From: Brenneria sp. hezel4-2-4
GTDB taxonomy: Bacteria; Pseudomonadota; Gammaproteobacteria; Enterobacterales; Enterobacteriaceae
DNA: 64,000 bases
NCBI RefSeq assembly: GCF_013155275.1
Contig: NZ_JABJXS010000011.1
Location: forward strand, 1 to 64,000
Direction: 5' to 3'
In this document: positions 42,411 to 57,920 of the stretch, piece after piece
How positions within the stretch are numbered: the stretch's first letter is position 1
Layout: each line of letters starts with the position of its first letter
Program-made: the position numbers and the translations under genes
Notes under the pieces: model-generated
What the model saw: only the letters and a program-made list of their open reading frames with translations
Databases searched by the model: none
Told to the model about the DNA's origin: nothing

Positions 42411-43064
42411 TTAAAAATCCCGCTGGCTCAGTATCGCCAAACGGGCGCGATAGCCATTTCTGATATGCTGACAGGCCGATTCCTGCGCGGCTTCCCGATC
42501 GCGCCGCACCAGAGCATCAACAATCATCTGATGCTCTTTTTTGGCTTCGGCGCACCGCTCAGACAAGTCATAGGTGGTTCCGCGCAGCAGCGACAGATGA
42601 ATGCGTAAATTATCCAGCATCTCATTCAGATAGGGATTGTGGGTGGCGCGATAAATCTGGCGATGGAACAAACGATTGTGATCGTGCAACTGCTTACCAT
42701 CGACGATGTTCTCTTCCACGTTGACCATATTCTGCAACAGAGCGATCTCTTCGTCTGACGCCGACGCGACGGCAAGCTCCATCGCCAGCCGCTCCAATCC
42801 CTCACGTACGGCAAATAGCTGGCGCAGACGTTCATAGCTGATTTGCGCGATCATCAGACCGCGCTGCGGCCCCGGCTCGACCAGTCCCAACGTTTCCAGC
42901 CGGTGCAACGCTTCACGGATCGGCGTGCGGCTCAGCCCGAATTGCTTTGCCAGCCGGGCTTCCTGTAAACGTTCCCCAGGCAATAGCTCACCCCTTTCAA
43001 TAGCGGCTATCAGGGTATCAAACGGCGATAAAGCCGCCTCACGATCGGTTAGTTTTAGATTCAT
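42411..43064 (-). CDS. GntR-family (FCD domain) transcriptional regulator
   Basis: A 217-residue regulator. The winged helix is residues 20-75, with LQEARLAKQFGLSRTPIREA and LHRLETLGLVEPGPQRGLMI. The C-terminal FCD helical ligand domain has FAVREGLERLAMELA and the metal-binding pattern around DHNRLFHRQIYRATHN. FCD regulators usually respond to organic or amino acids. It is divergent from the first PrpD gene; a 21-bp sequence repeated upstream of that gene and of the ABC transporter is the best operator candidate. The 345-bp intergenic region upstream (43065-43409) contains the promoters and that site. Confidence 0.88.
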   Translation of the reverse strand: MNLKLTDREAALSPFDTLIAAIERGELLPGERLQEARLAKQFGLSRTPIREALHRLETLGLVEPGPQRGLMIAQISYERLRQLFAVREGLERLAMELAVASASDEEIALLQNMVNVEENIVDGKQLHDHNRLFHRQIYRATHNPYLNEMLDNLRIHLSLLRGTTYDLSERCAEAKKEHQMIVDALVRRDREAAQESACQHIRNGYRARLAILSQRDF

Positions 43065-43301
43065 AATCCATCAATTAGTGATTTAACAATAAAACAGGCC
43101 ACCGGCATGGACAGGAAAACCGCCTCTCTGGTGCCTGTGCGGATCGCCCACTGGAGGGTGAGCGCCAGTTAAGTTGAAAACTTTTCAATGTTTGCCCGCC
43201 GCAATACGGTTAGCAATATCTTGTATTGCTTATTTTGTTCTTAACTTAGCTAAAAAGCATCTTTGCAGCGATTAACCCTATTGCTATCCTGTTCAGCCAC
43301 A

Positions 43302-43322
43302 ATGGTATACAAATGAATGCAG
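43302..43322. promoter_or_regulatory. Candidate GntR-family operator upstream of the PrpD pair
   Basis: ATGGTATACAAATGAATGCA plus G. It differs at only two of 21 positions from a site at 47227-47247 and contains a GTATAC centre, as many FCD-type GntR operators do. It is 87 bp before the first PrpD gene and in the region shared with the regulator gene. Confidence 0.65.
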
Positions 43323-43409
43323 AAAAATAAATACCTAATCCGCCTGCCCTCAGGCACCAGACCACCTTCATCGTTAACATCATAGCATTGCGCTTAAGGA
43401 GTCACCGCG

Positions 43410-44768
43410 ATGACCACTACTCCCGCGATCCCTCGCGGAGAACAGCTTAGCCAGTTTATCAGCCATGCGCCTCGGCTTCCGATCCCTGCGGCTGTCCTGC
43501 ACGAAGCCAAACGCGCGCTGATCGATTACCTTGCCGTCGCGCTGGGCGCCGTCAACGATCATGCCGTGCAGAGCGTGCGCCAGGTGGTTAAACGCTGGAA
43601 TTCCCAGGGCGATGCGCAAATCTTTCTCGGCGGCAAAACCACGCCCGCGCTGGCGGCTCTGATTAACGGCACCATGGCGCATGCCGCCGATTACGATGAT
43701 ACCCATCCGGCTGGCGCCGGACATCCAAGCGCCCCTTGCTGGTCCACCGCGCTGGCGATGGCGCAAGCCTATCAGGCCAATGAACAAGCCGCCTTGATCG
43801 CCTTTATTACCGGTTTTGAAGTCATGGCCAAACTGGGCGGCGGCTGGGTGCCTGGCGTGGGCCGCAATCTGCAACGCCGCGGATTCCATCCCACGTCAAT
43901 CGTCGGCCGGGCGGGCGCCGCCGCCACTGCCGCCTCGATTCTGCAACTGAATCCGCAGCAAATCGCCAACGCGCTTGGTGCGGCGGCCACCATGATGGGC
44001 GGGCTTCAGAAATCCTCCGGCACGCACGGCAAACCGTTCCATGCGGGCAAAGCCGCGATGGACGGCATCATGGCCGCGGAACTGGCGGCGGAAGGGTTCA
44101 CCGCCGCGCATCACTTCTATGAAACCGACGGTTGGGTGAAAATATTTATTCAGGATGGCAGCGCGGAAATTCCTGCGTTGGATTTCGGCCACAGTTGGGA
44201 ACTGCTCGGCAACGGCTACAAACTGTATGCCAGTTGCCGGGGCACCCACGCCTCAATCGAAGCCGCGCGGTCGCTATATCCGCAGCTTAACGGCCGAAAA
44301 ATTACGCGCATCCACGCCAAAGTCCACCCGATGGGCATGGTTAACGCCGGGATTGCCAATCCGAAAACGCCGCTGGAAAGCAAATTCAGCATCCCCCACT
44401 GCATTACGCTGGCGCTAAGCGGCTACGCATTGACCGATACCGATTTCACGCAGCAAACCGTTGACGATCCGCGTCCCCGCCAGTTGCTGCCGTCGCTGGA
44501 TATCGAGGCCGTTGACGGTCAGTCCGCCAGCGCCGCCTTTATCGATATCTGGTTGGAAGATGGCGAGCGGCTGCACGGTGAAACCCAGGTCTATCGCGGT
44601 CATCCGCAAAACCCGCTCTCCGAGGCGGAACTCCGGGCGAAGTTCGATACCCTGACCGTACCGGTCTTGGGCACGGCTAACAGCGGCAGACTGTATCAGG
44701 CGGCGATCAATTTTGAACAGCCCGGCTCCCTTGCCGTCATCACCGAGATTCTGGCCGGACGTCCATAG
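43410..44768 (+). CDS. MmgE/PrpD-family protein 1
   Basis: A 452-residue protein of the family that includes 2-methylcitrate dehydratase, cis-aconitate decarboxylase and iminodisuccinate epimerase. Landmarks are ALINGTMAHAADYDDTHP, KLGGGWVPGVGRNLQRRGFH, THGKPFHAGKAAMDGIMAAE with the conserved lysine, and YASCRGTHASIEAARSL. No prpB or prpC is near, so a methylcitrate role is unlikely. AAGGAG lies before the ATG. It probably forms an operon with a second PrpD gene and a TauE-type exporter. I infer an epimerase or dehydratase acting on a succinyl-type dicarboxylate, but the substrate is unknown. Confidence 0.85.
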   Translation: MTTTPAIPRGEQLSQFISHAPRLPIPAAVLHEAKRALIDYLAVALGAVNDHAVQSVRQVVKRWNSQGDAQIFLGGKTTPALAALINGTMAHAADYDDTHPAGAGHPSAPCWSTALAMAQAYQANEQAALIAFITGFEVMAKLGGGWVPGVGRNLQRRGFHPTSIVGRAGAAATAASILQLNPQQIANALGAAATMMGGLQKSSGTHGKPFHAGKAAMDGIMAAELAAEGFTAAHHFYETDGWVKIFIQDGSAEIPALDFGHSWELLGNGYKLYASCRGTHASIEAARSLYPQLNGRKITRIHAKVHPMGMVNAGIANPKTPLESKFSIPHCITLALSGYALTDTDFTQQTVDDPRPRQLLPSLDIEAVDGQSASAAFIDIWLEDGERLHGETQVYRGHPQNPLSEAELRAKFDTLTVPVLGTANSGRLYQAAINFEQPGSLAVITEILAGRP

Positions 44769-44861
44769 CGTCTGCGGCGTCAACCATAACCATGTCGTCC
44801 CAATTGGCCGCGATCCCGCCGCTTTTCGGGACTTATCGCAAGATTTGTACAGGAATGTTTT

Positions 44862-46187
44862 ATGACCATTGCCCGCCAGTTTGCCCACAACCTGCTGGAA
44901 TTTTCCCGCCAGATCTTTCCCGCCGAGGCACTGGCTCACGCCAGAACCGCCATTATTGATACGCTTGGCGTGACGCTGGCCGGCGGTATTCAGGATGGCG
45001 CGGAAAAGCTCCGCGCGGTAATCACGCCGTCGGCGGCGGCAGGCCGGAGTCGCGTGTTCGGCACCCAGTTGCGTCTCAACGCGCTGGACGCCGCCTTGCT
45101 GAATGGCACGTCCGCCCATTTACTGGATTTTGATGATTCCAACTCCTGGCTACACGGCCACATTTCGGTCGTGGTGCTCCCGGCCCTGCTGGCGCTGGCG
45201 GATGAACATCAATCCAGCGGCGCGCAGATATTACGCGCCTACCTGTCCGGTTACGAAGCCGCGGTACGGATGGGAAAGACCGTTAGCCCGTTTCAGTATC
45301 GCCACGGCTGGCACCCCACTACCTCGGTTGGCGTCTTTGCCGGTGTGGCGGCCAGTGCCGTCCTGCTCGATCTCACCGAAGAAGAAACCGCGACCGCACT
45401 GTCGATTACCGCCTCGCTGGCTTCCGGCATCAAATCCAACTTTGGCAGTCAGACCAAATCGCTGGCGGTAGGCCAAGCCAACCGCAACGCGGTGATGGCC
45501 GTGTTGCTCGCGCGTCAGGGATATAGCACCGGACAAACCGCTTTTGAACACCACCACGGCTACTTCAACGTCTACAATCAAGGGCCGGAAAACTATGACT
45601 CCACGCCGCTCACCGAAACATGGGATGCGCCCTCTCATATCCTCGATCCGGTAAAAGGCAATACCTTCAAGGCATTTCCCTGCTGCTACGCCATCCTGTC
45701 GCCGCTGGATGCCCTGCTGACGCTACGCGAAGAAACGGCGCTGCCAGCCGACCAGATCGCACGGATTCAGGTCGCCATTCATCCGATCCGTTTCCCGCAC
45801 ATCAATACGCCAAAACCGGAAACGCCGCTGGCGGGGAAATTCAGCCTGCATTACTGTCTTGCCCGCGCCTGGGTCAGTGGTCAGTTGACGCTGGACGACT
45901 TTATTGATGAAGCCGCCTTTAGCGATCCCCTCACCAATGATCTGATGGGAAAAGTGGAACTAAGCTGTCACGATGAAAGCACCACGCACAGCGCCCGGGT
46001 AACCCTGATTAGCCGGGACGGCCAGCATTTCACCCGCCATGTGGCGGGAGCGCCTGGCTCAAGCGCAGACAATCCGTTGCCGAAAAACCTGATAGAGCAG
46101 AAGTTCCTCGAGTGCGCCAGTAAGGTGATGACGCGCGAGGACGCTCAGGCGTGGTATCAGCGTCTGCTTCAGGATGACTTTGACTAA
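44862..46187 (+). CDS. MmgE/PrpD-family protein 2
   Basis: A 441-residue paralogue, quite different in sequence from the first. Landmarks: LLNGTSAHLLDFDDSNSWLH, QYRHGWHPTTSVGVFAGVAA, GSQTKSLAVGQANRNAVMA and FPCCYAILSPLDALL. The lysine of TKSLAVGQA corresponds to that of the first protein. It follows 93 bp later, so the two are probably cotranscribed. Two diverged copies suggest two substrates, two stereochemical steps or a hetero-oligomer. YxeQ of Bacillus, in the S-(2-succino)cysteine cluster, belongs to the same family. Confidence 0.85.
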   Translation: MTIARQFAHNLLEFSRQIFPAEALAHARTAIIDTLGVTLAGGIQDGAEKLRAVITPSAAAGRSRVFGTQLRLNALDAALLNGTSAHLLDFDDSNSWLHGHISVVVLPALLALADEHQSSGAQILRAYLSGYEAAVRMGKTVSPFQYRHGWHPTTSVGVFAGVAASAVLLDLTEEETATALSITASLASGIKSNFGSQTKSLAVGQANRNAVMAVLLARQGYSTGQTAFEHHHGYFNVYNQGPENYDSTPLTETWDAPSHILDPVKGNTFKAFPCCYAILSPLDALLTLREETALPADQIARIQVAIHPIRFPHINTPKPETPLAGKFSLHYCLARAWVSGQLTLDDFIDEAAFSDPLTNDLMGKVELSCHDESTTHSARVTLISRDGQHFTRHVAGAPGSSADNPLPKNLIEQKFLECASKVMTREDAQAWYQRLLQDDFD

Positions 46188-46289
46188 ACGGCCCGATCGG
46201 TCGTCAATAACCGCCGCTCCCGCCGGCAAACGTTGTACGAGTCGGGGGGAACTGGCCGCTTCTCATCGCGTTACCACGGGATCGTTATT

Positions 46290-47045
46290 ATGCTTGAACT
46301 GATTCCGCCAGAGATATCGCCGCTGTTTGCCGGCATTCTGGTGTTTTGCAGTTTTCTCACTTCGGCCCTTACCGCCGCGCTGGGACTGGGAGGCGGCGTA
46401 ACGCTGCTGGCGATAATGGGATTAGGTATGCCCGTCAGCAGCCTGTTGCCGGTACACGGCATCGTCCAGCTTGGCTCAAACATGAGCCGTACCCTGATTC
46501 AGCGTAGGCATGTGGTATGGCCGCTGGTGCTATGGTTTTTTATCGGCAGCGTCGCGGGCATCACGCTTGGCGCGCCGGTCGCGGTATGGATACCGGACAG
46601 CATCGCCAAAATCGCCCTGGCGCTGTTTATCCTGTGGTCGGTGTTTCATCAGCGCACGCCGCCCAAAAAGGTGAACCGGCTGTATTTTATTCTCGGCGGG
46701 GCGATAACCAGCCTCGGGACCATGATTGTCGGCGCAACCGGACCGTTGGTCGCCGGACTGATCGGCTCGCAAGGGCTGACCAAACAACCGCTGATCGCCA
46801 CCCACGCCACCTGTATGGTGCTGCAACATGGTCTGAAAATCCTGGCTTTCGGCCTGTTGGGTTTTGCCTACGCCAGTTGGATGCCAATGCTGATCGCCAT
46901 GATTGCCAGCGGCGTGCTGGGCACCTGGCTCGGCACCCGACTGCTGGATAACCTGCCCGAAAGACTGTTTCGCACCGCGTTTCGTCTGACCATGTTTATC
47001 CTCAGCACCCAGCTTATCTGGCAGGGTATAAAAGGATGGCTGTAA
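46290..47045 (+). CDS. TauE/SafE-family membrane exporter
   Basis: A 251-residue membrane protein with eight hydrophobic segments. The family signature is TSALTAALGLGGGVTLLAIM, repeated in weaker form as ITSLGTMIVGATGPLVAGLIG. Members export or take up sulfite, sulfoacetate and other small organic anions. The ATG at 46290 is preferred because an upstream TTG frame adds an unlikely polar stretch. It follows the PrpD pair by 102 bp and probably ends that operon. A link to sulfur compounds is suggestive but not shown by sequence. Confidence 0.82.
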   Translation: MLELIPPEISPLFAGILVFCSFLTSALTAALGLGGGVTLLAIMGLGMPVSSLLPVHGIVQLGSNMSRTLIQRRHVVWPLVLWFFIGSVAGITLGAPVAVWIPDSIAKIALALFILWSVFHQRTPPKKVNRLYFILGGAITSLGTMIVGATGPLVAGLIGSQGLTKQPLIATHATCMVLQHGLKILAFGLLGFAYASWMPMLIAMIASGVLGTWLGTRLLDNLPERLFRTAFRLTMFILSTQLIWQGIKGWL

Positions 47046-47226
47046 TTCGGGAAGAAAATAACCAAAAAATAGATGGGATATAAATAAAAAATCTATTTTT
47101 TATCGAGTTATCTTCATTGAAGTCAGTTAAAAACACATGCCTCCGCAAGGGCTTTTTCCTTTATCCAATATTCTTCTTTATATATTGAAATTTGCTATTT
47201 GCCATTTAGATTCCAGCTTGAGAACA

Positions 47227-47247
47227 TTGGTATACAAAAGAATGCAG
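47227..47247. promoter_or_regulatory. Candidate GntR-family operator upstream of the AapJ-type gene
   Basis: TTGGTATACAAAAGAATGCA plus G, 19 of 21 identical to the site at 43302-43322 and 62 bp before the solute-binding protein start. Together they suggest common control of both operons. The surrounding gap (47046-47309) is AT-rich and otherwise holds only promoter-like sequence. Confidence 0.65.
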
Positions 47248-47309
47248 TTGATAACTTTTATATAATTTACAACAACTTAACCATATTATTGCTTATCTCA
47301 AGGGTTCTT

Positions 47310-48359
47310 ATGTTGAATAAAATATTCGCTTTTACGGCAGTAATGCTGCTAACACTGGGGAATTCACTGCTACCGGCCCACGCGCAAACCGCCGCGACGG
47401 GTCATGGTGAAACGTTAAAAAAAATCAAGGCCCGAGGGGAGCTGGTGTGCGGCGTGCATCCCGCCCGACATGGTTTTTCCTCTATCGACAGCAAAGGACA
47501 GTGGACCGGTCTGGATATCGACTATTGCCGCGCGCTGGCGGCGGCCATTTTCGGCGATGCCGGTAAAGTTCGCTTTTCCGCCTTGTCTACCGCACAACGC
47601 TTTCCGGCCATTCAATCCGGCGAAGTGGATGTGTTATCCCGCAACATCACCGCTTCGTTATCCCGCGACTCTTCACTGGGACTTAACTTCGCCCCGCCAA
47701 CCTTCTATACCGGCACCGGTTTCATGGTTCGTGCGGATGCCGGCGTGAAGAAAATCGAGGATCTGGATGGCGCAACGATATGTATCACACCGGGCAGCAG
47801 CACTGAACATAACGTAGCCCAAATTTTTGCCTCACGTAACCTGCGCTATACGCCGGTGGTGATCGAAAACAACAAAGAGTATGTCGCCGCCTATCTGTCC
47901 GGCCGTTGTGATGTGCTGGCCCGCGATAAAGTCGCGCTGCCGGGCGTGCGTGCTTTTGATGCGGAAAATGCCGCCGATCATGTGATTTTACCGAGCATTT
48001 ACTCCAAAGAACCGTTGGCGATGGCCGTACGTCAGGGCGACGATCAGTGGTACGACATTGTTAAATGGGTGGTTTACACCACGTTTAACGCCGAGGAAAT
48101 GGATATCACTCAGCAGAATGTGGACAGTAAATTGCAGTCCATCGATCCCGACGTGCAGGCGTTACTGGGCCTGACCGGCGACTACGGTCAAAAACTGGGG
48201 CTGGACAATAAGTGGGCCTATAACATCGTCAAGCAGGTCGGTAACTACGGTGATATCTATAACCGCTACTTCGGCCCGGACACACCGGCGCCGCTGGATC
48301 GCGATCTGAACAATCTGTGGAACAAGGGTGGCTTGCTGTACGGTTTACCCAACCGTTAA
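47310..48359 (+). CDS. AapJ/BztA-type amino-acid ABC transporter solute-binding protein
   Basis: A 349-residue periplasmic protein with a Sec signal peptide (MLNKIFAFTAVMLLTLGNSL, LPAHA-QT). Conserved parts of the general L-amino acid binding family are VCGVHPARHGFSSIDSKGQW, GLDIDYCRALAAAIFGD, VDVLSRNITASLSRDSSLGL and GDYGQKLGLDNKWAYNIVKQ with VGNYGDIYNRYFGP. Rhizobial AapJ and E. coli YhdW are relatives. AAGGG precedes the ATG. The ligand is probably an amino acid or an acidic derivative. It is the first gene of a four-gene transporter operon. Confidence 0.88.
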   Translation: MLNKIFAFTAVMLLTLGNSLLPAHAQTAATGHGETLKKIKARGELVCGVHPARHGFSSIDSKGQWTGLDIDYCRALAAAIFGDAGKVRFSALSTAQRFPAIQSGEVDVLSRNITASLSRDSSLGLNFAPPTFYTGTGFMVRADAGVKKIEDLDGATICITPGSSTEHNVAQIFASRNLRYTPVVIENNKEYVAAYLSGRCDVLARDKVALPGVRAFDAENAADHVILPSIYSKEPLAMAVRQGDDQWYDIVKWVVYTTFNAEEMDITQQNVDSKLQSIDPDVQALLGLTGDYGQKLGLDNKWAYNIVKQVGNYGDIYNRYFGPDTPAPLDRDLNNLWNKGGLLYGLPNR

Positions 48360-48474
48360 TCCCGTTCGTCGCGGCGTAAACGAAGGCCGGGCCTTCGTTT
48401 ACGCCGCGATATTAAGCAGGGAAAGTCAGGTAATTAAGAGGATGGTTTTTTTGACCGAAATAAAAGAAACACCG

Positions 48475-49701
48475 ATGATGAAGCAGCCAAAAAAGAGCAT
48501 TAAACCATCCGCTTTTCCGTTATTTTCGGAAAAGTTTTTTGTCTATAAAAATATCGCTATCATCGTGAGTAATAAATCATTCCGCGCATGGTTTTATCAA
48601 ATCCTGCTTGGCGTACTGATTATTTTATTCAGCTACTGGCTGTATAGCAACGTGGTGGGTAATTTACGATCGCAGAATATTGCGACCGGCTTTGGCTTTC
48701 TGCACCATACCGCGCAATTTGAAATTGGCGAAAAACTCATCAGTTACACGGCGCGCGACAGCTATACCCGCGCGCTGGCGGTCGGGCTGTTGAATACGCT
48801 GTATGTCTCGCTATGGGGGATCGTACTGGCCACCGTACTGGGCTTTTCCATCGGGATTGCCCGGGTATCAAAAAACTGGCTGTTGGCACGCATTGCCGGG
48901 TGTTACGTTGAGTTGCTGCGCAATGTGCCGGTGATTTTACAGGTGATTTTCTGGTCGGTGGTGATCCGCAATCTACCCAGCCCGCGCGCCGCCATTGAAC
49001 TCGGTAGTCTGGGCTTTCTCACCAATCGCGGCCTCGCCTTCGCCCTGCCCGCGGCCCATTCCGGCTGGCTGTGGTGCGCTATCGCCCTGTTCACGGCATT
49101 GATTATCAGCGCCGTATTGAAACGAGTGGGGCGTCGCCTGCGTGAACATCATGGCCGCATCCTGCCGGTCGGACGGATTGCGCTGGCGCTGATTATCGGC
49201 CTGCCGCTGCTGGCATGGTGGCTATCCGGCAGCCCGCATCAGCTCAATCGCCCGGTGTTGAGCGGGTTTAACTTTCGCGGCGGCTTCACCATCAGCCCGG
49301 AGTTTACCGCGCTGCTGCTGGGGATTTCCCTCTACGCTTCCGCGTTTATCGCTGAAATTGTCCGGGCGGGCATTCAGTCGATTCCGAAAGGGCAACTGGA
49401 AGCCGCGCGTTCGCTGTCTCTATCTCCCTGGCAGATAATGCGCAACATCATTATCCCGCAGGCCATGCGGGTCATCGTCCCGCCGCTGACCAGCCAATTT
49501 GTCAGCCTGTCCAAAAACAGCTCTATTGCCGTCGTCGTCGGCTATCCCGAGTTGGCCAATATCGGCAATACCCTGATGAACCAAACCGGCCAGGCGCTGG
49601 AAGTGATCGCGATTATGATGGTGGTCTACCTGACGATCAGCAGCGTGACGTCGCTGTTGATGAATATTTTTAACCGCACCGTTGCCATCAAAGAACGCTG
49701 A
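48475..49701 (+). CDS. AapQ-type amino-acid ABC transporter permease
   Basis: A 408-residue permease with the split architecture of AapQ/YhdX: an N-terminal helix pair, a long periplasmic insertion around residues 50-110, then the permease core with EAARSLSLSPWQIMRNIIIP as the EAA loop contacting the ATPase. The start is uncertain: ATG at 48475 or 48478, a TTG at 48451 and an ATG at 48442 are alternatives; AAGAGG at 48436 would suit the TTG. It works with the next gene as a heteromeric channel. Confidence 0.87.
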   Translation: MMKQPKKSIKPSAFPLFSEKFFVYKNIAIIVSNKSFRAWFYQILLGVLIILFSYWLYSNVVGNLRSQNIATGFGFLHHTAQFEIGEKLISYTARDSYTRALAVGLLNTLYVSLWGIVLATVLGFSIGIARVSKNWLLARIAGCYVELLRNVPVILQVIFWSVVIRNLPSPRAAIELGSLGFLTNRGLAFALPAAHSGWLWCAIALFTALIISAVLKRVGRRLREHHGRILPVGRIALALIIGLPLLAWWLSGSPHQLNRPVLSGFNFRGGFTISPEFTALLLGISLYASAFIAEIVRAGIQSIPKGQLEAARSLSLSPWQIMRNIIIPQAMRVIVPPLTSQFVSLSKNSSIAVVVGYPELANIGNTLMNQTGQALEVIAIMMVVYLTISSVTSLLMNIFNRTVAIKER

Positions 49702-49711
49702 GGAGAGCATC

Positions 49712-50833
49712 ATGTCGTTCCCTGCTTTTTCACTCCCCGCGGCGGCACCCCGGTGGTTCACCGTCTGGCGCTGGATGAAACGTAATCTGTTCAGCAGTCT
49801 ACCGCAGACTATCCTGACGCTGCTGTTGGCCGCGTTGTTACTGACCATCGGCGACAAACTGCTGCGCTGGGGCATCATTGACGCCGTCTGGCGCACCACC
49901 GATCCAGAAGTGTGCCGGGTTGCCGCCGGCGCCTGCTGGGCGGTGATTAGTGAAAAACATCGGCCGATCTTGTTTGGTCTCTATCCTTACGACCAGCACT
50001 GGAGACTGGTCATTGCCATGCTGATCTGGTTTTTGACCCTCGGTCTGTCGCTGATGCCGCGTTTCTGGCATTCGCGCATTTTGCTGCCGTTATGGGTCGT
50101 ATCAGTCGCTATCATGGCGGTTCTGATGAGCGGCGGTGTATTGGGGCTGCCCCGCGTTCCCTCATCCGAATGGGGCGGGCTGCCGCTCACCATCCTGCTG
50201 TTTAGCGGCACCGTCGTCATCGGCATGCCGTTTTCGGTGCTGCTGGCGCTTGGCCGCCGCTCGCCGCTGCCTTTCCTGCGCGGCCTGTCGGTGATCTTTA
50301 TCGAGAGCCTGCGCGGCGTACCGTTGATTACTATCCTGTTTGTCGCCGTTAATGTCTTTCCGCTGTTTCTGCCTGCCGGGATGGAAGTGAACAAATTGCT
50401 GCGCATTATCGTCGGCATCGCGTTGTTTTTTGCCTGCTATCAGGCGGAAGTGATCCGCGGCGGTTTGCAATCCGTGCCGCGCGGGCAGTATGAAGCCGCC
50501 GCCGCGCTCAATCTGGGGTACTGGCACACCACCACCAAAATTATTCTGCCGCAGGCGCTGCGTATTTGTTTGCCTGCCATGACCAATCACATTATCGCCG
50601 CGATGAAGAACACCTCGTTCGTCATCATTATCGGGCTGTTCGATATTCTCACCGCCACCAGTTCGGTTATGCAGGATCCACTCTGGCGCCGCTATTACCT
50701 TGAGACCTATCTTTTTATTTCGGCCATCTATCTGCTGTTTGGCTTTTTGCTTTCGCGCTATGCGCTGTGGGTGGAAAAACGCATCGATGCCAGCCGTAAC
50801 CCTGAAACATTTAACCACGGAGCTTTGTCATGA
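49712..50833 (+). CDS. AapM-type amino-acid ABC transporter permease
   Basis: A 373-residue permease. The N-terminal helices and WGIIDAVWRTTDPEVCRVAA with GACWAVISEKHRPILFGLYP are typical of AapM/YhdY. The EAA loop is QYEAAAALNLGYWHTTTKII. A GAGGAG ribosome site precedes the ATG 10 bp after the previous stop. It overlaps the ATPase gene by ATGA, so translation of the two is coupled. Confidence 0.89.
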   Translation: MSFPAFSLPAAAPRWFTVWRWMKRNLFSSLPQTILTLLLAALLLTIGDKLLRWGIIDAVWRTTDPEVCRVAAGACWAVISEKHRPILFGLYPYDQHWRLVIAMLIWFLTLGLSLMPRFWHSRILLPLWVVSVAIMAVLMSGGVLGLPRVPSSEWGGLPLTILLFSGTVVIGMPFSVLLALGRRSPLPFLRGLSVIFIESLRGVPLITILFVAVNVFPLFLPAGMEVNKLLRIIVGIALFFACYQAEVIRGGLQSVPRGQYEAAAALNLGYWHTTTKIILPQALRICLPAMTNHIIAAMKNTSFVIIIGLFDILTATSSVMQDPLWRRYYLETYLFISAIYLLFGFLLSRYALWVEKRIDASRNPETFNHGALS

Positions 50834-51585
50834 GTAGTTCACTTTCCACTGAGCCGGTGATTGAAATCAAATCCGTCAGCAAATGGTACGGCGAGTTTCA
50901 GGCGCTGAACAATGTCACGCTGAACGTGGCGAAAGGGGAACGCGTGGTGATCTGCGGCCCCTCCGGTTCGGGCAAATCCACGCTGATCCGCTGCATTAAC
51001 CGGCTGGAAGAACATCATCAGGGACAGATCCTGGTCAATGGCATCGAAATGAACGACAACATCAGGAATATCAACCGCATCCGCCTGAGCATCGGCATGC
51101 TGTTCCAGCAGTTCAACCTGTTTCCGCACCTGAGCGTACTGGATAACCTGATTATCGGCCCGACGCTGGTCAGGCAGATGAAAAAGCAACAGGCGATCGA
51201 ACTGGCGATGCGTTATCTGGAAAAAGTGCATATTGCCAACCAGGCGCACAAATTTCCGCTTCAGCTATCCGGTGGGCAACAGCAGCGCGTAGCGATTGCA
51301 CGCGCGCTATGTATGCAGCCGGAAATTATGCTGTTCGACGAACCGACATCGGCGCTGGATCCGGAGATGATTAAAGAAGTGCTGGACGTGATGCTCGATC
51401 TGGCTGAAAGCGGCATGACCATGATCGTGGTCACTCATGAAATGGGCTTTGCCAAAACGGTGGCGGACAAGGTGATCCTGATGGCTGATGGCGGCGTGAT
51501 CGAATCCGCGCCGCCACAAACCTTTTTCAACGCCCCGTCGCACCCGCGTACGCGCCAGTTCCTGGACCAGATACTCAGCCATTAA
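50830..51585 (+). CDS. AapP-type amino-acid ABC transporter ATP-binding protein
   Basis: A 251-residue ATPase. Walker A is CGPSGSGKSTLIRCINRLEE, the Q-loop MLFQQFNLFPHLSV, the signature LSGGQQQRVAIARALCMQP, Walker B MLFDEPTSALDPEM and the switch histidine VVTHEMGFA. These match the polar amino-acid importer class (AapP, YhdZ, GlnQ). It completes the J-Q-M-P operon. Downstream is a heptanucleotide tandem repeat and then the convergent M20 gene. Confidence 0.93.
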   Translation: MSSSLSTEPVIEIKSVSKWYGEFQALNNVTLNVAKGERVVICGPSGSGKSTLIRCINRLEEHHQGQILVNGIEMNDNIRNINRIRLSIGMLFQQFNLFPHLSVLDNLIIGPTLVRQMKKQQAIELAMRYLEKVHIANQAHKFPLQLSGGQQQRVAIARALCMQPEIMLFDEPTSALDPEMIKEVLDVMLDLAESGMTMIVVTHEMGFAKTVADKVILMADGGVIESAPPQTFFNAPSHPRTRQFLDQILSH

Positions 51586-51596
51586 CGGCGCTACGG

Positions 51597-51645
51597 CCTG
51601 TCGCCTGTCGCCTGTCGCCTGTCGCCTGTCGCCTGTCGCCTGTCG
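51597..51645. repeat. Heptanucleotide tandem repeat, seven perfect copies
   Basis: CCTGTCG repeated seven times without mismatch, beginning 11 bp after the ATPase stop. Such arrays change copy number by slippage. It is intergenic and lies between convergent genes, so a phase-variable reading frame is not evident. Confidence 0.97.
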
Positions 51646-51724: not shown

Positions 51725-51749
51725 CAATGCCGGCCGAATACCGGCATTG
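51725..51749. terminator. Hairpin between convergent ABC ATPase and M20 genes
   Basis: CAATGCCGG-CCGAATA-CCGGCATTG, a perfect 9-bp stem. T-runs on either side are poor, so termination is possible but weakly supported. Confidence 0.4.
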
Positions 51750-51758
51750 CTTGTCAAC

Positions 51759-52916
51759 TCAACGGGACGCCAGCTGTTCCAGACTTTGCTTCGCTATCTG
51801 GTACAGGTAGTGCGCAGTTGGGAACAGCGCCCGATCGTCCACCCGGAATTTGGGATGATGCAGCGCATAAGGGCCGCCAGAACCCACCATCATAAAAGTG
51901 CCCGGCAGCTTCTGCTGATAAAAGGCGAAATCTTCGCCGATAGGGCTGGCTTCAATGCGCCGCGCTTCAAATCCTTCTTCCGCCGCCACGTTCAGCGCAA
52001 AGTCGACCCACTCTGCCGTATTCACCACCGAGGGCGGCCCGGCGTGCCAGAGAAACTCGATTTCAGCGCCAAAGGTGCCGGCGATACCGGCGACGATTTG
52101 GCGGAAACGCTGTTCAATCAGCTCGCGCACCTCCTGACTGAAGGTTCTTACCGTTCCTTCTACATAGGCGGTATCGGGGATCACGTTCCAGGTACTGCCG
52201 CTGTGCACCTGAGTAATCGACACCACGGCGTTGTTATCAGACGGCACGGTACGGCTGATAATGGTTTGAACCGCAGAAATCAGCTGGCCGAGAATAATAA
52301 TCGGATCATTTCCTTCATGCGGTTTCGCCGCATGGCAGCCTTTTGCCGCGATTTTGATTTCAAAGCGATCGACCCCCGCCGTCAGCGCGCCCTCTTTGCC
52401 GCCGATCACGCCAACCGGCAGCGTCGGATCGTTATGAATGCCAAAGATCGCCGCCGCGTTGTCCAGCGCCCCGGTGGCGATGACTTCCGGCGCGCCCAGC
52501 CCGGTCTCTTCCGCCGCCTGAAACAGAATACGCACCGTACCTTTTAGTTCCGGTTCAATCTTCTTCAGCAAAATAGCCGCGCCCAGAGCGGCGGAGGAAT
52601 GGAAATCGTGCCCACAGGCATGCATGACGCCTTTACTGCTTGAGGTGAATTCAACCCCGGACTCTTCTTCAATCGGCAGGGCATCGATATCCGATCGCAC
52701 CACCACCAGCGGCCCGTCCTGTTGCCCGCCGACTTCGGCCACCAGACCGGTTTTCAGCGGCAAATCGAGTACGCGGATCCCTTCCTTTTCCAATACTTCC
52801 CTGATTTTCCTGGTGGTTTCAAATTCCTGATTCGATAACTCAGGATGCCGGTGCAGATCGTGCCGGAATGCCTGGATAAACTGCGCCAGAGGCGCATGCT
52901 GAGGTGCTATTTTCAT
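51759..52916 (-). CDS. M20 amidohydrolase, YxeP-type N-acetyl-thiol deacetylase candidate
   Basis: A 385-residue peptidase M20D-family protein. The metal site begins MHACGHDFHSSAALGAAIL with Cys101 and His103; the catalytic and metal glutamates are Glu136-Glu137 in FQAAEETGLGAPEV. The lid domain lies in roughly residues 185-300 and ends before PPSVVNT. Relatives cleave N-acyl amino acids, including N-acetylcysteine. GGAG lies before the ATG at 52916. As the last gene of the lyase-GNAT-ABC cluster it corresponds to YxeP, which frees cysteine from N-acetylcysteine. The family is certain; the substrate is inferred from gene order. Confidence 0.85.
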   Translation of the reverse strand: MKIAPQHAPLAQFIQAFRHDLHRHPELSNQEFETTRKIREVLEKEGIRVLDLPLKTGLVAEVGGQQDGPLVVVRSDIDALPIEEESGVEFTSSSKGVMHACGHDFHSSAALGAAILLKKIEPELKGTVRILFQAAEETGLGAPEVIATGALDNAAAIFGIHNDPTLPVGVIGGKEGALTAGVDRFEIKIAAKGCHAAKPHEGNDPIIILGQLISAVQTIISRTVPSDNNAVVSITQVHSGSTWNVIPDTAYVEGTVRTFSQEVRELIEQRFRQIVAGIAGTFGAEIEFLWHAGPPSVVNTAEWVDFALNVAAEEGFEARRIEASPIGEDFAFYQQKLPGTFMMVGSGGPYALHHPKFRVDDRALFPTAHYLYQIAKQSLEQLASR

Positions 52917-52996
52917 TAATGCTGACTCCACATTATCCGCCCTGATGAACAGAGCTGCCCATTTAACGGGCGTGCAGGTATTTTTTATTTTCCCGG

Positions 52997-53758
52997 TCAA
53001 ATATCGTATTCAACCGGCTCGGGTATCTTGGTAAGCTGCCGCAAGAAGCGCTGCGTTTGCGGGTTGTCGGAAAAACTGATCACTTTTTCCGCCGGCCCTT
53101 CTTCAACAATGTGACCGTCCGCCATGAAGATCACCCGATCCGCCACTTCCTGAGCGAATTGCATCTCATGCGTGACGATCACCATGGTGGTGTGGTTCTT
53201 CGCCAGCTTCTGGATCACCTGTAGCACTTCATGCACGCGTTCCGGATCCAGCGCCGACGTCGGCTCATCGAACAGAATGGCTTTCGGATCCACCGCCAGC
53301 GCCCGGGCAATGCTCACGCGCTGCTGCTGCCCGCCCGATAGCGTTACCGGATATTGCGCCGCTTGAGGCAACAGGCCAACCTGCTCCAATAGCGCAAGTC
53401 CAATCTCATTGGCCTGTTTTTTCGGCATTTTCTTCACCACAATCAGCGCTTCGGTGATATTTTCCAACGCCGTCTTATTCTTGAACAGGTTGTAGTTCTG
53501 AAACACCATGGCGGTCTGCCGACGCAGCGCATACGCTTCTTTACTCGAATAATGGCGCGTGTCCAGCAACTGCTCGCCGATCTCAATCGTCCCGGCCTCC
53601 GGCGTTTCCAACAGGTTCAGACAACGCAGCAAGGTCGATTTTCCTGAGCCAGACGGCCCGATAATCGCGACGACTTCGCCTTTGGCGATATCCAGACTGA
53701 TATCATTCAATACCACCTGATTACCAAAGCTTTTGGTGAGATTCTTTACACTGATCAT
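52997..53758 (-). CDS. Cystine-type ABC transporter ATP-binding protein (YxeO-like)
   Basis: A 253-residue ATPase. Walker A is IIGPSGSGKSTLLRCLNLLE, Q-loop MVFQNYNLFKNKTALENI, signature LSGGQQQRVSIARALAVDP and Walker B LFDEPTSALDPERV. It is of the polar amino-acid class but distinct from the ATPase at 50830. It lies 9 bp after the permease gene and 80 bp before the M20 gene, matching the yxeMNOP order. Confidence 0.9.
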   Translation of the reverse strand: MISVKNLTKSFGNQVVLNDISLDIAKGEVVAIIGPSGSGKSTLLRCLNLLETPEAGTIEIGEQLLDTRHYSSKEAYALRRQTAMVFQNYNLFKNKTALENITEALIVVKKMPKKQANEIGLALLEQVGLLPQAAQYPVTLSGGQQQRVSIARALAVDPKAILFDEPTSALDPERVHEVLQVIQKLAKNHTTMVIVTHEMQFAQEVADRVIFMADGHIVEEGPAEKVISFSDNPQTQRFLRQLTKIPEPVEYDI

Positions 53759-53767
53759 TTCAGCCCC

Positions 53768-54439
53768 TTATCGCTGCAACGAGTGATTCAGTTTCTTTTC
53801 CAGTTGCTTCTGCAACCAGGCATAAACAATGATCACCAGCCAGTAAATCAGACCAACAACCAGGAAGGTCTCAAAGAAACGTAACGATTCTGCGGCAATC
53901 ATCTTGCCTTCCGCAAACAGTTCGGACACACCCAGCGCAAACGCGACCGAGGTATCTTTAATCAGCGAGATGAACGTGTTGCCCGTTGCCGGCAACGCAT
54001 TCAGCATGGCCTGAGGCAGCACAATCCGACGATAAATCTGCGCCTTGTTCATGCCAATCGATAAACCGGCTTCCGTTTGCCCGAAATCAACCGACGCCAG
54101 CGCCGCGCGGAATATTTCCGCCATGTAAGCCGAAGTTTTCAGACTGAAGCCAATAATCGCCGCCGACATGGCGCTGAGATCGGATAAGGCGGGGAAAAGC
54201 TGCGGCAACCCGAAATAGATGATAAACAGTTGCACCAGCGAAGGGATGCCGCGGAACAGCGAGATATACAGCTCGACCAGTTTGACGACCGGCGTGATCT
54301 TGCTTTCCCTGACCAACGCCAGCACCAGGCCGATAATCATGGCGAAAAACATAGAAACGATCGCCAGCAACAGCGTCATGGGCAAATAGAGCAATACCTG
54401 GGGAAAGACTTTCAACAGGTAGGCAAGATCGATATTCAT
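53768..54439 (-). CDS. Cystine-type ABC transporter permease (YxeN-like)
   Basis: A 223-residue permease with about five transmembrane helices. The EAA loop is QTEAGLSIGMNKAQIYRRIV followed by LPQAMLNALPATGNTFISLIKDTS, and the N-terminal part has LYISLFRGIPSLVQLFIIYF. The start is uncertain among three in-frame ATG codons; I use the one giving MNIDLAYLLKVFPQ, while that at 54451 has a better GGCGG site. It probably imports a cystine-like or succinylated cysteine substrate. Confidence 0.87.
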   Translation of the reverse strand: MNIDLAYLLKVFPQVLLYLPMTLLLAIVSMFFAMIIGLVLALVRESKITPVVKLVELYISLFRGIPSLVQLFIIYFGLPQLFPALSDLSAMSAAIIGFSLKTSAYMAEIFRAALASVDFGQTEAGLSIGMNKAQIYRRIVLPQAMLNALPATGNTFISLIKDTSVAFALGVSELFAEGKMIAAESLRFFETFLVVGLIYWLVIIVYAWLQKQLEKKLNHSLQR

Positions 54440-54517
54440 GATTAATACCATTGATACCGCCATCGGGCGCGGCACACCGCGCCGATGGCATTAAGATTGT
54501 CAGGAAGCGGTCACGTA

Positions 54518-55315
54518 TTAATGAACAGCCGGCGGCGTCGTGATATCCTCGCCAAAATATTTGATCGACAGTTCTTTCAGACGCCCGTCGTCGCGCATTT
54601 TGCTCAACTCTTCGTCAAACTGTTTACGCAATGCATCGCCCTGCTCATTCTTGTGGAACGGAAAGCTGACTTCCTCGATAACCAACGGATCGCCCACCAG
54701 CTTAAACGCCAGGTTGCGTTTGTTGATTTCGGCCAGCAGGATCGGACGCGAGTTCACGTAACCTTCAACACGTTTGGAAAGCGCATCGTTCATCGCCCCG
54801 TCACGCGTTTCATAAGTACGGATATTCACGCTGCCGTCAGCAAACGCCTGCTTCAGATTGTTGATGTGATTCGACCCCAACACACCCGCCACCGTTTTGC
54901 CTTTCAGATCGTCCAGCGTATTGATGTCGGCATTATCTTTGTGGGTCACGATCTGGCTGCCGTAATAGCTGTACGGCTGGGCGAAGTTGTACTTTTCCTG
55001 ACGGACGGGCGTAATAGCCACCACGTTGGCGACCGTATCCAGCTTGCCGGCTTCCAACTGCCCCATCAGGCCGCTAAAATCGGCGGTTACCCACTCGACC
55101 TTGTAGTTCAGATCCTTGGCGATAGTTTCCGTAACCTCAACATCGAAACCGACCAGCTTATTATCCTGCTTGAAGCCGCTCGGATAGCTCTGGCCGGTGG
55201 AACCCACTTTCAACACTTTCTGCCCCTGCGCGGCGTTATCCTGGGAATCGCAGCCGGCCACAAGAAAGGCAGTCGTCAACGCTAAAGCGGACAGGGTTAA
55301 TTTTTTCATTATCAT
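54518..55315 (-). CDS. Lipoprotein solute-binding protein (YxeM-like)
   Basis: A 265-residue family-3 solute-binding protein. The signal sequence ends in a lipobox, LVAGC with Cys22, which is unusual for Gram-negative amino-acid binding proteins. The body carries VGSTGQSYPSGFKQDNKLVG, FSGLMGQLEAGKLDTVANVV, VAGVLGSNHINNLKQ and YVNSRPILLAEINKRNLAFK. From memory these align closely with Bacillus YxeM, including the GQSYP and NSR motifs. AGAGG lies 7 nt before the ATG at 55315. Ligand inferred: S-(2-succino)cysteine or a similar thioether amino acid. Confidence 0.85.
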   Translation of the reverse strand: MIMKKLTLSALALTTAFLVAGCDSQDNAAQGQKVLKVGSTGQSYPSGFKQDNKLVGFDVEVTETIAKDLNYKVEWVTADFSGLMGQLEAGKLDTVANVVAITPVRQEKYNFAQPYSYYGSQIVTHKDNADINTLDDLKGKTVAGVLGSNHINNLKQAFADGSVNIRTYETRDGAMNDALSKRVEGYVNSRPILLAEINKRNLAFKLVGDPLVIEEVSFPFHKNEQGDALRKQFDEELSKMRDDGRLKELSIKYFGEDITTPPAVH

Positions 55316-55326
55316 TTTCGTGCCTC

Positions 55327-55854
55327 TCATTTTGAGTTTCTCTTTTTCCACTGGTTATATAATTGGGCATCAAGGATTTTTTCCATCCAAATCGTCAGGT
55401 GTCCTTTGCCCAAATCGGTTTGCCCGACTTCTCTAAAACCATAATGTTTATACATCTCAATCAGCCAGGGATGGTTCTGTGCCGTCCCTAACGACACCGC
55501 CGGCGCCTTGAGCTGGTCGATGAGAATAGTCTGCTCAAGCCAGGCCATCATTTGCTTACCCAGGCCTTGTTTTTTATGCTCAGGATGCGTGGCGAACCAC
55601 CCCAGGTGCGGCAAACCATACGGGCCAGGCTCTGGCCCCCAGGGGTAACGGATGGTGAAGGACGAGACCATTTTCCCTTCCTTTTCCATCACATACACGC
55701 CATGGGAAGCAATGTGGTTACGCACCATCTCAATGTCGGCGTGTGCCGCGGAGAAATTGATCCCCAACTGACGTATCGGCTCAAAAGCCGCCAACGCCAA
55801 AGCCAGAAACGCCTCGTCATCCTCCAGCGTAACCTGGCGAAATACCGTACTCAT
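55327..55854 (-). CDS. GNAT N-acetyltransferase (YxeL-like)
   Basis: A 175-residue GNAT protein. The acetyl-CoA binding motif A is LGWFATHPEHKKQGLGKQMM (Q96-G97-L98-G99-K100), and ALAAFEPIRQLGINF and YKHYGFREVG are other landmarks. In the yxe pathway the acetyltransferase modifies the amino group of S-(2-succino)cysteine before cleavage. It lies 13 bp after the lyase gene and 11 bp before the binding protein gene, so all three are cotranscribed. Substrate assignment is by context. Confidence 0.82.
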   Translation of the reverse strand: MSTVFRQVTLEDDEAFLALALAAFEPIRQLGINFSAAHADIEMVRNHIASHGVYVMEKEGKMVSSFTIRYPWGPEPGPYGLPHLGWFATHPEHKKQGLGKQMMAWLEQTILIDQLKAPAVSLGTAQNHPWLIEMYKHYGFREVGQTDLGKGHLTIWMEKILDAQLYNQWKKRNSK

Positions 55855-55867
55855 GATTCCACCTTAT

Positions 55868-57232
55868 TTACGCTGGCAACAGACCCGAGTTATCCGCATA
55901 GCGGATCACGTCATCCACTTTCTGTGGCGCGCTGCCCAGATAATTGGCCGGATTCAACCACCCATCCAGTTCGTCCGATGTTAACTGAGCAGACAGCACG
56001 GGGTGTTCCAGCAACACGGATTTAAACGACTGGTTGTTTTCGAATGCCTGCATCGAGCACTCATAAACCAGATGATGCGCAGTCTGTTTGCCCAAACGTT
56101 TGCCAATCTCAAACATCACTTTTTCGGACAATAACAAACCGTTTTGCAACTCCAGATTAGCCCGCATCTGTTTTTCATTCACCGACATGCCGCGTAAAAT
56201 ACCCAACGCATTCTGGAGCTGGGCGGACAGATAGATGTTTATTTCCGGTAAAGCGATCCATTCCGCGCGCCAGCTCATCGCATCACGCTCATGTTCCACC
56301 TTCATGGATTCATGGATCAGCGCCGCGCTTTTGAACACCGGCGAGGTCAGGCTTGCCAACCCCTCAAGCGCCGCCGGATTACGTTTGTGCGGCATCGTCG
56401 TCGAACCGATTTTACCTTCCGAGAACGGCTCCTCGATTTCGTTAATTTCAGTGCGCATCAGGTTGTACAATTCGTTGCCGATCTTGCCTAACGTACCACT
56501 GATCAGCACCACCACCGAGGCATATTCGGAAAAACGATCGCGGGCGGACTGCCAGCCGATATTCGGCGTGTTCAGGCCCAGCTTATCCAGCGTCAAACGC
56601 TCGATTGCCGGCCCTTGTTCGCCAAAGGAAGCATAGGTGCCGATGGCGCCGTTGATATTGCCAACCAGCACGCGCTGTTTGATTTCGCTCAGGCGCTCAA
56701 GATGGCGGACAAACTCATCCAGCCAGACCGCCAGCTTGAAGCCGAAAGTGGTGGGTAACGCCTGCATGCCGTGGGTACGGCCCGTCATCAGCGTATATTG
56801 ATATTTTTTCGACAGGCGTTTCAGCTCAACCGCCAACAGTTGGGTGTCCCTGATCACGATGTCAAATGACTGTTTTAATTGTAATACCGTGGCCGTATCG
56901 ACGATATCCTGCGTGGTCACGCCATAGTGGATAAACTCGCCGGCGGCGCCGCACTGTCTCTGAATCGCGGCTATCGTCGGCATCAGGGAATGCTTCATCC
57001 GGGCCGCATCCTTGGCGATCTCTTCCACATCCAGCGCGCCGGCGTCGGCTTTTTCAGCAATCGTTTTTGCCGCGTCCTGCGGGATGACGCCAAGCTCTCC
57101 TTCGGCCAGCGCCAGCGCCACTTCTACTTCAACTTGCTTGGTCAGGCGGTTATGTTCCGACCACACGCCGCGCATTTCGGGCGTGCCAAAATTATTCCCT
57201 ATAAGAAGAAAATCAATAAGATGTGATGCCAT
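55868..57232 (-). CDS. Fumarase/argininosuccinate-lyase superfamily enzyme, probable S-(2-succino) lyase
   Basis: A 454-residue lyase close to the adenylosuccinate lyase branch. The signature loop GSTTMPHKRNP spans residues 276-286 with catalytic Ser277. HYGVTTQDIVDTA (102-114) and TGRTHGMQALPTT (150-162) carry substrate-binding residues. A housekeeping purB role is unlikely because it sits with an acetyltransferase, a cystine-type transporter and an M20 deacetylase. A lyase of this superfamily, including one I recall from Dickeya dadantii, replaces YxeK in some yxe clusters and splits N-acetyl-S-(2-succino)cysteine into fumarate and N-acetylcysteine. That is the best functional match. Confidence 0.82.
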   Translation of the reverse strand: MASHLIDFLLIGNNFGTPEMRGVWSEHNRLTKQVEVEVALALAEGELGVIPQDAAKTIAEKADAGALDVEEIAKDAARMKHSLMPTIAAIQRQCGAAGEFIHYGVTTQDIVDTATVLQLKQSFDIVIRDTQLLAVELKRLSKKYQYTLMTGRTHGMQALPTTFGFKLAVWLDEFVRHLERLSEIKQRVLVGNINGAIGTYASFGEQGPAIERLTLDKLGLNTPNIGWQSARDRFSEYASVVVLISGTLGKIGNELYNLMRTEINEIEEPFSEGKIGSTTMPHKRNPAALEGLASLTSPVFKSAALIHESMKVEHERDAMSWRAEWIALPEINIYLSAQLQNALGILRGMSVNEKQMRANLELQNGLLLSEKVMFEIGKRLGKQTAHHLVYECSMQAFENNQSFKSVLLEHPVLSAQLTSDELDGWLNPANYLGSAPQKVDDVIRYADNSGLLPA

Positions 57233-57442: not shown

Positions 57443-57519
57443 TGGTCGGCGAGAGAGGATTCGAACCTCCGACCCACTGGTCCCAAACCAGTTGCGCTAC
57501 CAAGCTGCGCTACTCGCCG
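57443..57519 (-). tRNA. proM: tRNA-Pro (anticodon TGG)
   Basis: 77 nt with encoded CCA. Acceptor CGGCGAG pairs with CTCGCCG; the anticodon stem ACTGG/CCAGT frames the loop TTTGGGA (anticodon TGG). The T-arm has GGTTCGAATCC. Last of four tRNAs in the order argX-hisR-leuT-proM, as in E. coli. Confidence 0.97.
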
Positions 57520-57565
57520 AATCTACTGCCGTATTACTTAAGCATCGTCAATGCTTTCGTCTGTG

Positions 57566-57652
57566 TGGTGCGAAGAGAGGGACTTGAACCCTCACGTCCG
57601 TTAAGACACTAACACCTGAAGCTAGCGCGTCTACCAATTCCGCCACCTTCGC
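57566..57652 (-). tRNA. leuT: tRNA-Leu (anticodon CAG)
   Basis: 87 nt with a long variable arm and encoded CCA. Acceptor GCGAAGG, anticodon CAG within GCTTCAGGTG, T-arm GGTTCAAGTCC. Nearly identical to E. coli tRNA-Leu1. Confidence 0.97.
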
Positions 57653-57674
57653 ATAACTCACAAACGTCTAAATC

Positions 57675-57751
57675 TGGGGTGGCTAATGGGACTCGAACCC
57701 ACGACAACTGGAATCACAATCCAGGGCTCTACCAACTGAGCTATAGCCACC
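57675..57751 (-). tRNA. hisR: tRNA-His (anticodon GTG)
   Basis: 77 nt including the encoded extra 5' G at -1 and CCA. Acceptor GTGGCTA, anticodon loop TTGTGAT (GTG), T-arm GGTTCGAGTCC. It is the only His tRNA seen here. Confidence 0.97.
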
Positions 57752-57843
57752 ATACACCACGCTTTACTGCTTTCTACTATTTGACGCGGTACTTCCTTTA
57801 CGGGGTAGTAAATGTACCACCGCAGCTCTTGCACACAACTTAG

Positions 57844-57920
<77 letters not shown>

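Follow-up and report, generated by a model that had tools for sequence, protein, structure and literature searches.

Six consecutive minus-strand open reading frames at positions 51759-57232 raise the question of which compound is handled by a gene group that joins a fumarase-superfamily lyase to an acetyltransferase, an importer and a deacylase. They lie in a 64,000-nucleotide stretch from Brenneria sp. hezel4-2-4 (contig NZ_JABJXS010000011.1, positions 1 to 64,000; hereafter the window) and encode, in order, a lyase, a GNAT acetyltransferase, a lipoprotein binding protein, a permease, an ATPase and an M20 deacylase (Table 1). A preliminary description, made from the letters of the window alone, had listed these genes, and all six were present in that place and order, with Pfam families that agree gene by gene (Lyase_1 with ADSL_C, Acetyltransf, SBP_bac_3, BPD_transp_1, ABC_tran and Peptidase_M20). 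As set out below, the group very probably imports S-(2-succino)cysteine (2SC), which is cysteine damaged by fumarate, and restores cysteine from it, as a salvage operon of the scm/yxe kind with an S-(2-succino) lyase (2SL) in a Brenneria-like bacterium.

A probable 2SL-type salvage operon

Gene families, gene order, the clade of the lyase and the absence of a close YxeK support this assignment, and the reactions are proposed by analogy with characterised orthologues. The binding protein, permease and ATPase would import 2SC, the GNAT would N-acetylate it, the lyase would reversibly split N-acetyl-2SC by beta-elimination into fumarate and N-acetylcysteine, and the M20 enzyme would deacetylate the latter to cysteine. 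A route of import, N-acetylation, cleavage and deacetylation has been described for 2SC (PMC9706529, PMC12757645). Because the 2SL equilibrium lies on the side of the adduct (the characterised enzymes have Kc values of 0.0046 and 0.0067; PMC9706529), the deacetylase, together with the use of fumarate, would have to pull the lyase step forward. The 2SLs of Dickeya dadantii and Enterococcus italicus complement a yxeK mutant of Bacillus subtilis and liberate fumarate from N-acetyl-2SC (PMC9706529), and the yxeK-lacking version from Dickeya and Enterococcus to which the preliminary description had pointed matches this published variant. Pathway and lyase variant are already documented there, in the sister genus Dickeya, and the operon extends this cysteine-repair pathway to Brenneria-like bacteria; the main value beyond what is known lies in a detached yxeQ gene and the idea that it encodes an epimerase.

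In a 45-row maximum-likelihood tree, the window lyase fell inside a 21-row clade (99/99) together with the 2SL of E. italicus DSM 15952, which is the strain used in PMC9706529, the correspondence being one of strain and not of gene accession. This clade leaves out the E. italicus PurB, PcaB, XcbD-like and E. coli-type PurB rows. Grouping with adenylosuccinate lyase (PurB), an outcome named beforehand as one that would overturn the assignment, was not seen, and a constraint that placed the lyase and four of its near kin with three PurB-like rows was rejected (approximately unbiased test, p-AU 0.013). PurB, PcaB and XcbD were accordingly rejected as identities of the lyase, XcbD also by a model score below its cut-off; in the tree, the XcbD-like L075 meets L008, both on long branches, which leaves the placement of XcbD unsure, and we do not claim XcbD and 2SL as sisters. 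Identities of the lyase are 95% to those of Brenneria alni, B. izbisi and B. salicis, 87% to that of Dickeya undicola and 63% to E. italicus 2SL. Its loop motif GSTTMPHKRNP is present as described, together with the Lyase_1 and ADSL_C domains. Throughout the 21-row clade this loop reads GS[ST]TMP, which is not diagnostic: the PurB-like L062, L065 and L082 have GSSAMP, yet E. coli-type PurB also has Thr.

Two loci, L063 (a stinkbug symbiont) and L064 (Serratia rubidaea NCTC12971), have a broken or partial lyase gene. Lyases 41-47% identical to 2SL occur in Proteus, Variovorax and the relative G011, and lyase fragments lie beside an MmgE/PrpD gene on an E. coli plasmid; these (L072, L073, L107 and L074) are possible further pairs of a lyase and an epimerase.

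The lyase gene is followed by the GNAT gene on the same strand in 53 of the 57 lyase loci that were fetched, so the gene order is not due to chance. The four exceptions are L063 and L064, with their damaged lyases, and L062 and L065, which are 33% homologues and not 2SL; their exclusion leaves 55 2SL loci. All six genes keep their order in E. italicus DSM 15952 (L054) and on a Niallia plasmid (L071). Among 398 genomes of the class of E. italicus, nine matched E. italicus yxeQ, one being E. italicus itself. The eight remaining loci, picked by yxeQ and of the YxeK type, all read monooxygenase, GNAT, binding protein, permease, ATPase, (M20) and yxeQ, with M20 inside the operon in three (L132, L133 and L135) and no M20 there in the other five. 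Compared with these loci, the window proteins are 47-53% (GNAT), 50-53% (binding protein), 56-60% (permease) and 63-69% (ATPase) identical, and M20 is 52% identical to that of L132, L133 and L135. Identities to the E. italicus proteins are 70% for the binding protein (residues 44-271 of its longest frame), 65% for the permease, 64% for the ATPase and 55% for M20, with only 36% for the GNAT. The M20 protein also matches PDB 1ysj, 'protein yxeP' (E 8.5e-120). Together with the three M20-bearing Bacilli loci, this agrees with the earlier equation of the last five genes with yxeL-M-N-O-P in order and family. A yxe/scm locus has been defined by the clustering of at least three of five components, of which YxeQ is one but is not required (PMC9706529); in the window, the YxeL, YxeMNO and YxeP kinds are clustered.

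The operon has no yxeK. Five luciferase-family monooxygenases are encoded in the genome of the window, and the four that were checked comprise two SsuD-like proteins, one MsnO8-like protein and one NtaA-family protein. A close YxeK was not found in this genome, where the YxeK-like protein of a Klebsiella 2SC locus has no match better than 37% (the NtaA-family protein); the lyase therefore stands in for YxeK, as first proposed.

Several loci hold additional genes. A YxeK-like monooxygenase occurs together with a 2SL-type locus in L028, L029, L033, L036, L038, L049, L064 (lyase broken) and L071. A GldA-like dehydrogenase lies beside 14 of the 55 loci (e.g. L010:7701-9820, L015:6242-8382, L028, L038), including eight of the 21 in Pectobacteriaceae, and in many loci it comes with a second lipoprotein binding protein that is 55-64% identical to the one of the operon. 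Neither gene lies beside the operon in the window, and the closest GldA-like protein of its genome is 52% identical and encoded at another place, with a stop reported in the match. The dehydrogenase, with or without the second binding protein, is a possible extra part of the pathway.

The lipobox marks the binding protein as a lipoprotein. Of 45 Gram-negative operon copies, 40 have Asp directly after the lipid cysteine (Gly in two, Asn in two, unreadable in one), as against none of 12 Gram-positive copies, the Gram-negative counts having been made by eye over related rows, so that they are no statistical test. In enterobacteria, Asp after the lipid cysteine is a signal for retention at the inner membrane. 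Because Asp follows the lipid cysteine here, the binding protein is probably tethered at the inner membrane beside its permease, a Gram-positive design adapted to the Gram-negative envelope.

yxeQ lies outside the operon

A point not raised in the preliminary description is that the operon lacks yxeQ. This MmgE/PrpD gene lies within 7 kb of the 2SL gene in 27 of 34 loci outside Pectobacteriaceae and in none of the 21 Pectobacteriaceae loci (Acerihabitans, although labelled Pectobacteriaceae in the tree, is counted outside the 21), and it is present in YxeK-type loci as well. The genome of the window has a detached copy at G000:C29:26605-27936, which probably belongs to the same pathway. With this copy as query, 29 of the 57 genomes were searched (the 21 Pectobacteriaceae, seven others without a linked copy, and L049). 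A copy of 64-85% identity was found in all 21 Pectobacteriaceae genomes; in Symbiopectobacterium L024 and L025 it is broken or short and matches at 72-74% along part of its length. Copies were also seen in three of three Pantoea (51-54%), in L056 (40%, with a stop) and in L049 (57%); L029 gave only a 31% match, and L061 and L063 gave none, L061 being a Gilliamella with a distant query and a cut contig. The second place that holds yxeQ in Pantoea also has a YxeK-like monooxygenase (3/3) and a GldA-like gene (2/3).

Two lines of evidence connect the detached gene with 2SC. In a 38-row YxeQ tree with a midpoint root, detached copies and linked enterobacterial copies form one 22-row clade (100/100), which includes the 2SC-locus genes of Klebsiella, Rahnella, Erwinia, Acerihabitans, Providencia and Thorsellia. 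Across 59 near genomes, a detached yxeQ (at least 67% identity) was present in 8/8 with 2SL (at least 88%) versus 1/51 without it (Fisher p 4e-9); weaker matches, to the lyase at 44% (G011) and to yxeQ at 35% (G008), were not counted as present. Seven of the eight belong to one genus, whose two species without 2SL also have no yxeQ, and the Fisher value therefore overstates independence. Other observations weigh against the connection. The detached gene adjoins an AraC regulator, a TonB receptor and an esterase; the single genome with yxeQ and no 2SL (G030) also has the regulator; and no yxeQ was found within the stretch covered of the Niallia plasmid locus, which carries 2SL and a YxeK-like gene. 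From this neighbourhood and from G030 it could be argued that the detached yxeQ has nothing to do with 2SC and goes with the adjoining iron-uptake genes. We regard this as a serious but unlikely explanation, given that the 22-row clade mixes detached copies with genes inside 2SC loci and that yxeQ accompanies 2SL among the near relatives, for all their concentration in one genus.

Two MmgE/PrpD genes within the window (43410-44768 and 44862-46187), which lie 5.6-7.0 kb from the operon, were weighed as candidates for the missing yxeQ and rejected as orthologues, though not as epimerases. They are 29-30% identical to the detached yxeQ and form long branches apart from the YxeQ rows; the first has no catalytic Tyr, and the second keeps it.

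YxeQ as a candidate 2SC epimerase

The YxeQ of the yxeKLMNOPQ operon L135 scored 662 bits against PDB 7bra, 'Bacillus subtilis IRG1' (bsIRG1), compared with 210 bits for iminodisuccinate epimerase and at most 85 bits for cis-aconitate decarboxylases of other organisms; on these scores, bsIRG1 is therefore YxeQ or a close orthologue. The active site of bsIRG1 is fully conserved with that of iminodisuccinate epimerase, including both of its proposed bases; mammalian IRG1 lacks the second of these (PMC7347537). For a related MmgE/PrpD enzyme, isomerisation of (S)- to (R)-methylsuccinate has been reported, and the known substrates of these enzymes share a four-carbon dicarboxylate backbone (PMC12290011). 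The function of YxeQ/bsIRG1 is openly called unknown or undetermined (PMC9706529, PMC12290011); in a 2026 review, bsIRG1 serves as a hint of possible itaconate production by some probiotics (PMC13307414).

Motifs were scanned in 37 proteins, comprising 27 linked copies from 2SL loci, seven of the eight Bacilli copies, the detached copy and the two paralogues of the window. GHP was present in 36 and HYxxG[WYF]H in 33, the four without the latter being the YxeQ rows L051 and L058 (Tyr kept, preceding His not) and the two distant paralogues. The detached YxeQ keeps the catalytic His and Tyr of iminodisuccinate epimerase (RGHPS and HYxxGYH in L117:9606-10937), residues whose roles are taken from PMC7347537 and PMC12290011.

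The YxeK route yields oxaloacetate and the 2SL route yields fumarate. Because YxeQ accompanies both routes, the YxeK-type loci having been chosen by this very gene, it more likely acts on their shared substrate than on either of these products. On general chemical grounds, two diastereomers are to be expected when cysteine adds spontaneously to fumarate. We tentatively propose, as an idea that could well turn out either way and for which we claim rather less than probability, that YxeQ (bsIRG1) is not a cis-aconitate decarboxylase and would instead epimerise 2SC or N-acetyl-2SC by inverting the succinyl C2, so that both diastereomers could then be split by 2SL or YxeK; in Pectobacteriaceae, its gene would have moved out of the operon and acquired an AraC regulator of its own. 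In two 2SC pathway papers and a paper on the synthesis of succinated thiols, no mention of 2SC diastereomers was found, and a literature search aimed at them met diastereomers only for methionine sulfoxide. The proposal itself was not found among the matches listed for the literature searched, a coverage that takes in few subscription papers. If true, it would complete the pathway and bear on the itaconate reading of bsIRG1.

Alternative substrates and names for the lyase

The operon could also follow the same logic for another S-substituted cysteine or small-thiol adduct, with 2SC as a side substrate only. The assignment to 2SC is weakened by the promiscuity of 2SL enzymes, which also act on other small thiols (PMC9706529), and by the yha and ytn clusters, which share the logic of acetylating, breaking and deacetylating (PMC12757645). 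The second-best NCBIfam neighbour of the lyase is XcbD, whose model name describes a synthase of cysteine adducts in the making of coenzyme M. For the binding protein, permease and ATPase, the closest NCBIfam models describe cystine transport proteins, though none of the scores reaches its cut-off, so that what is really imported may be cystine or another S-substituted cysteine; and D. undicola and D. oryzae stand in for the characterised D. dadantii enzyme in our comparison. Set against this, N-acetyl-2SC was the best substrate tested for both characterised relatives, which were ~60- and 320-fold more efficient on it than on 2SC (PMC9706529), and the window lyase reached 451.6 bits on the XcbD model NF052536 (cut-off 600), where the XcbD-like L075 scored 695. 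Another principal substrate is, on this evidence, quite improbable.

That the lyase is a second PurB, as four Pantoea plasmid copies are publicly annotated and as its 378 bits on the NCBIfam model TIGR00928 purB (cut-off 326) would have it, is hardly credible in view of the tree, of its operon with GNAT, transporter and M20 genes, and of a separate PurB in the genome. The same cut-off is passed by E. italicus 2SL (368 bits) and Dickeya 2SL (365 bits); the purB model therefore does not discriminate, and would misname the operon lyase. Eight Lyase_1 genes are present in the genome of the window, of which L005 groups (100/100) with a Dickeya homologue scoring 501 bits as purB, so the housekeeping PurB, of the E. 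coli type, is separate from the operon lyase.

Layout and surroundings of the operon

The operon keeps the outer limits first given for it, the longest M20 frame being 51759-53000. Judged from the sequence, likely true starts are ATG 55315 or 55309 for the binding protein, ATG 54439 for the permease and ATG 52916 for M20. The genes are tightly packed, the GNAT stop overlapping an in-frame ATG of the binding protein, except for ~80 bases before the permease and before M20 if these ATG starts are used. A promoter scan of the coding strand between the transfer RNA (tRNA) cluster and the lyase start found nothing.

Table 1 Features of the operon and its borders in the window.
Feature	Position	Strand	Remarks
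S-(2-succino) lyase (2SL)	55868..57232	-	454 aa; 2SL clade 99/99; predicted N-acetyl-2SC to fumarate + N-acetylcysteine
GNAT acetyltransferase (yxeL/scmL kind)	55327..55854	-	175 aa; Pfam Acetyltransf; predicted 2SC N-acetyltransferase
Lipoprotein substrate-binding protein (yxeM kind)	54518..55315	-	SBP_bac_3; lipobox LVAGC-D
ABC transporter permease (yxeN kind)	53768..54439	-	BPD_transp_1
ABC transporter ATPase (yxeO kind)	52997..53758	-	253 aa; ABC_tran
M20 deacylase (yxeP/scmP kind)	51759..52916	-	PDB 1ysj match; predicted N-acetylcysteine deacetylase
Terminator-like hairpin directly 3' of M20 gene	51725..51749	-	10-pair stem, weak T tail; consensus match only
tRNA cluster Arg-His-Leu-Pro directly upstream of operon	57443..57920	-	ARAGORN

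Upstream of the operon, on the same strand, come tRNA-Pro, -Leu, -His and -Arg and then an amino-acid permease gene. The same tRNA cluster lies upstream of the operon in 21/21 Pectobacteriaceae loci (Brenneria, Pectobacterium, Dickeya, Samsonia and Symbiopectobacterium) and of none of the other 36 fetched lyase loci (upstream side not covered in L057); it is the site where the operon sits in Pectobacteriaceae.

Facing the operon from the other side (42411-51585) is a group made up of a GntR regulator, the two MmgE/PrpD genes, an exporter of the TauE/SafE kind and a general amino-acid ABC transporter. In Samsonia and several Pectobacterium loci, at least one of the last two likewise adjoins the operon. 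Positions 51596-51645, in the gap where the two gene groups converge, hold seven perfect copies of the 7-base unit GCCTGTC.

Comparison with known systems

The 2SL-type yxe (scm) locus of D. dadantii and E. italicus has the same six families in the same order, which was checked directly for E. italicus, whose 2SL shares a clade with the window lyase. The E. italicus locus differs in carrying yxeQ directly before the lyase gene (L054:8684-9997), in lacking the adjacent tRNA cluster of the Pectobacteriaceae operon, and in having Ser rather than Asp after the lipid cysteine of the binding protein. The yxeKLMNOPQ (scmKLMNOPQ) operon of Bacilli has equivalents of L, M, N, O and P in the same order as the window, but has the flavin mononucleotide (FMN) monooxygenase YxeK in place of the lyase, and its yxeQ is the gene that is detached in the genome of the window. 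XcbD, a 3-sulfopropionylcysteine synthase of coenzyme M synthesis by its NCBIfam name, likewise belongs to the fumarase superfamily and acts on a C-S bond to cysteine; the window lyase differs from it in its sub-threshold score and in lying outside the XcbD-like branch, a long branch of unsure placement.

Degradation of iminodisuccinate combines an epimerase with a fumarase-superfamily C-N lyase. The likeness to the 2SC system is that both would pair an MmgE/PrpD protein with a fumarase-family lyase that splits a succinyl adduct, and the catalytic His and Tyr motifs are shared by YxeQ and iminodisuccinate epimerase (structures 2hp0 and 2hp3). The bond cleaved in that system is C-N, whereas the predicted 2SC route would cleave a C-S bond and include an N-acetylation step.

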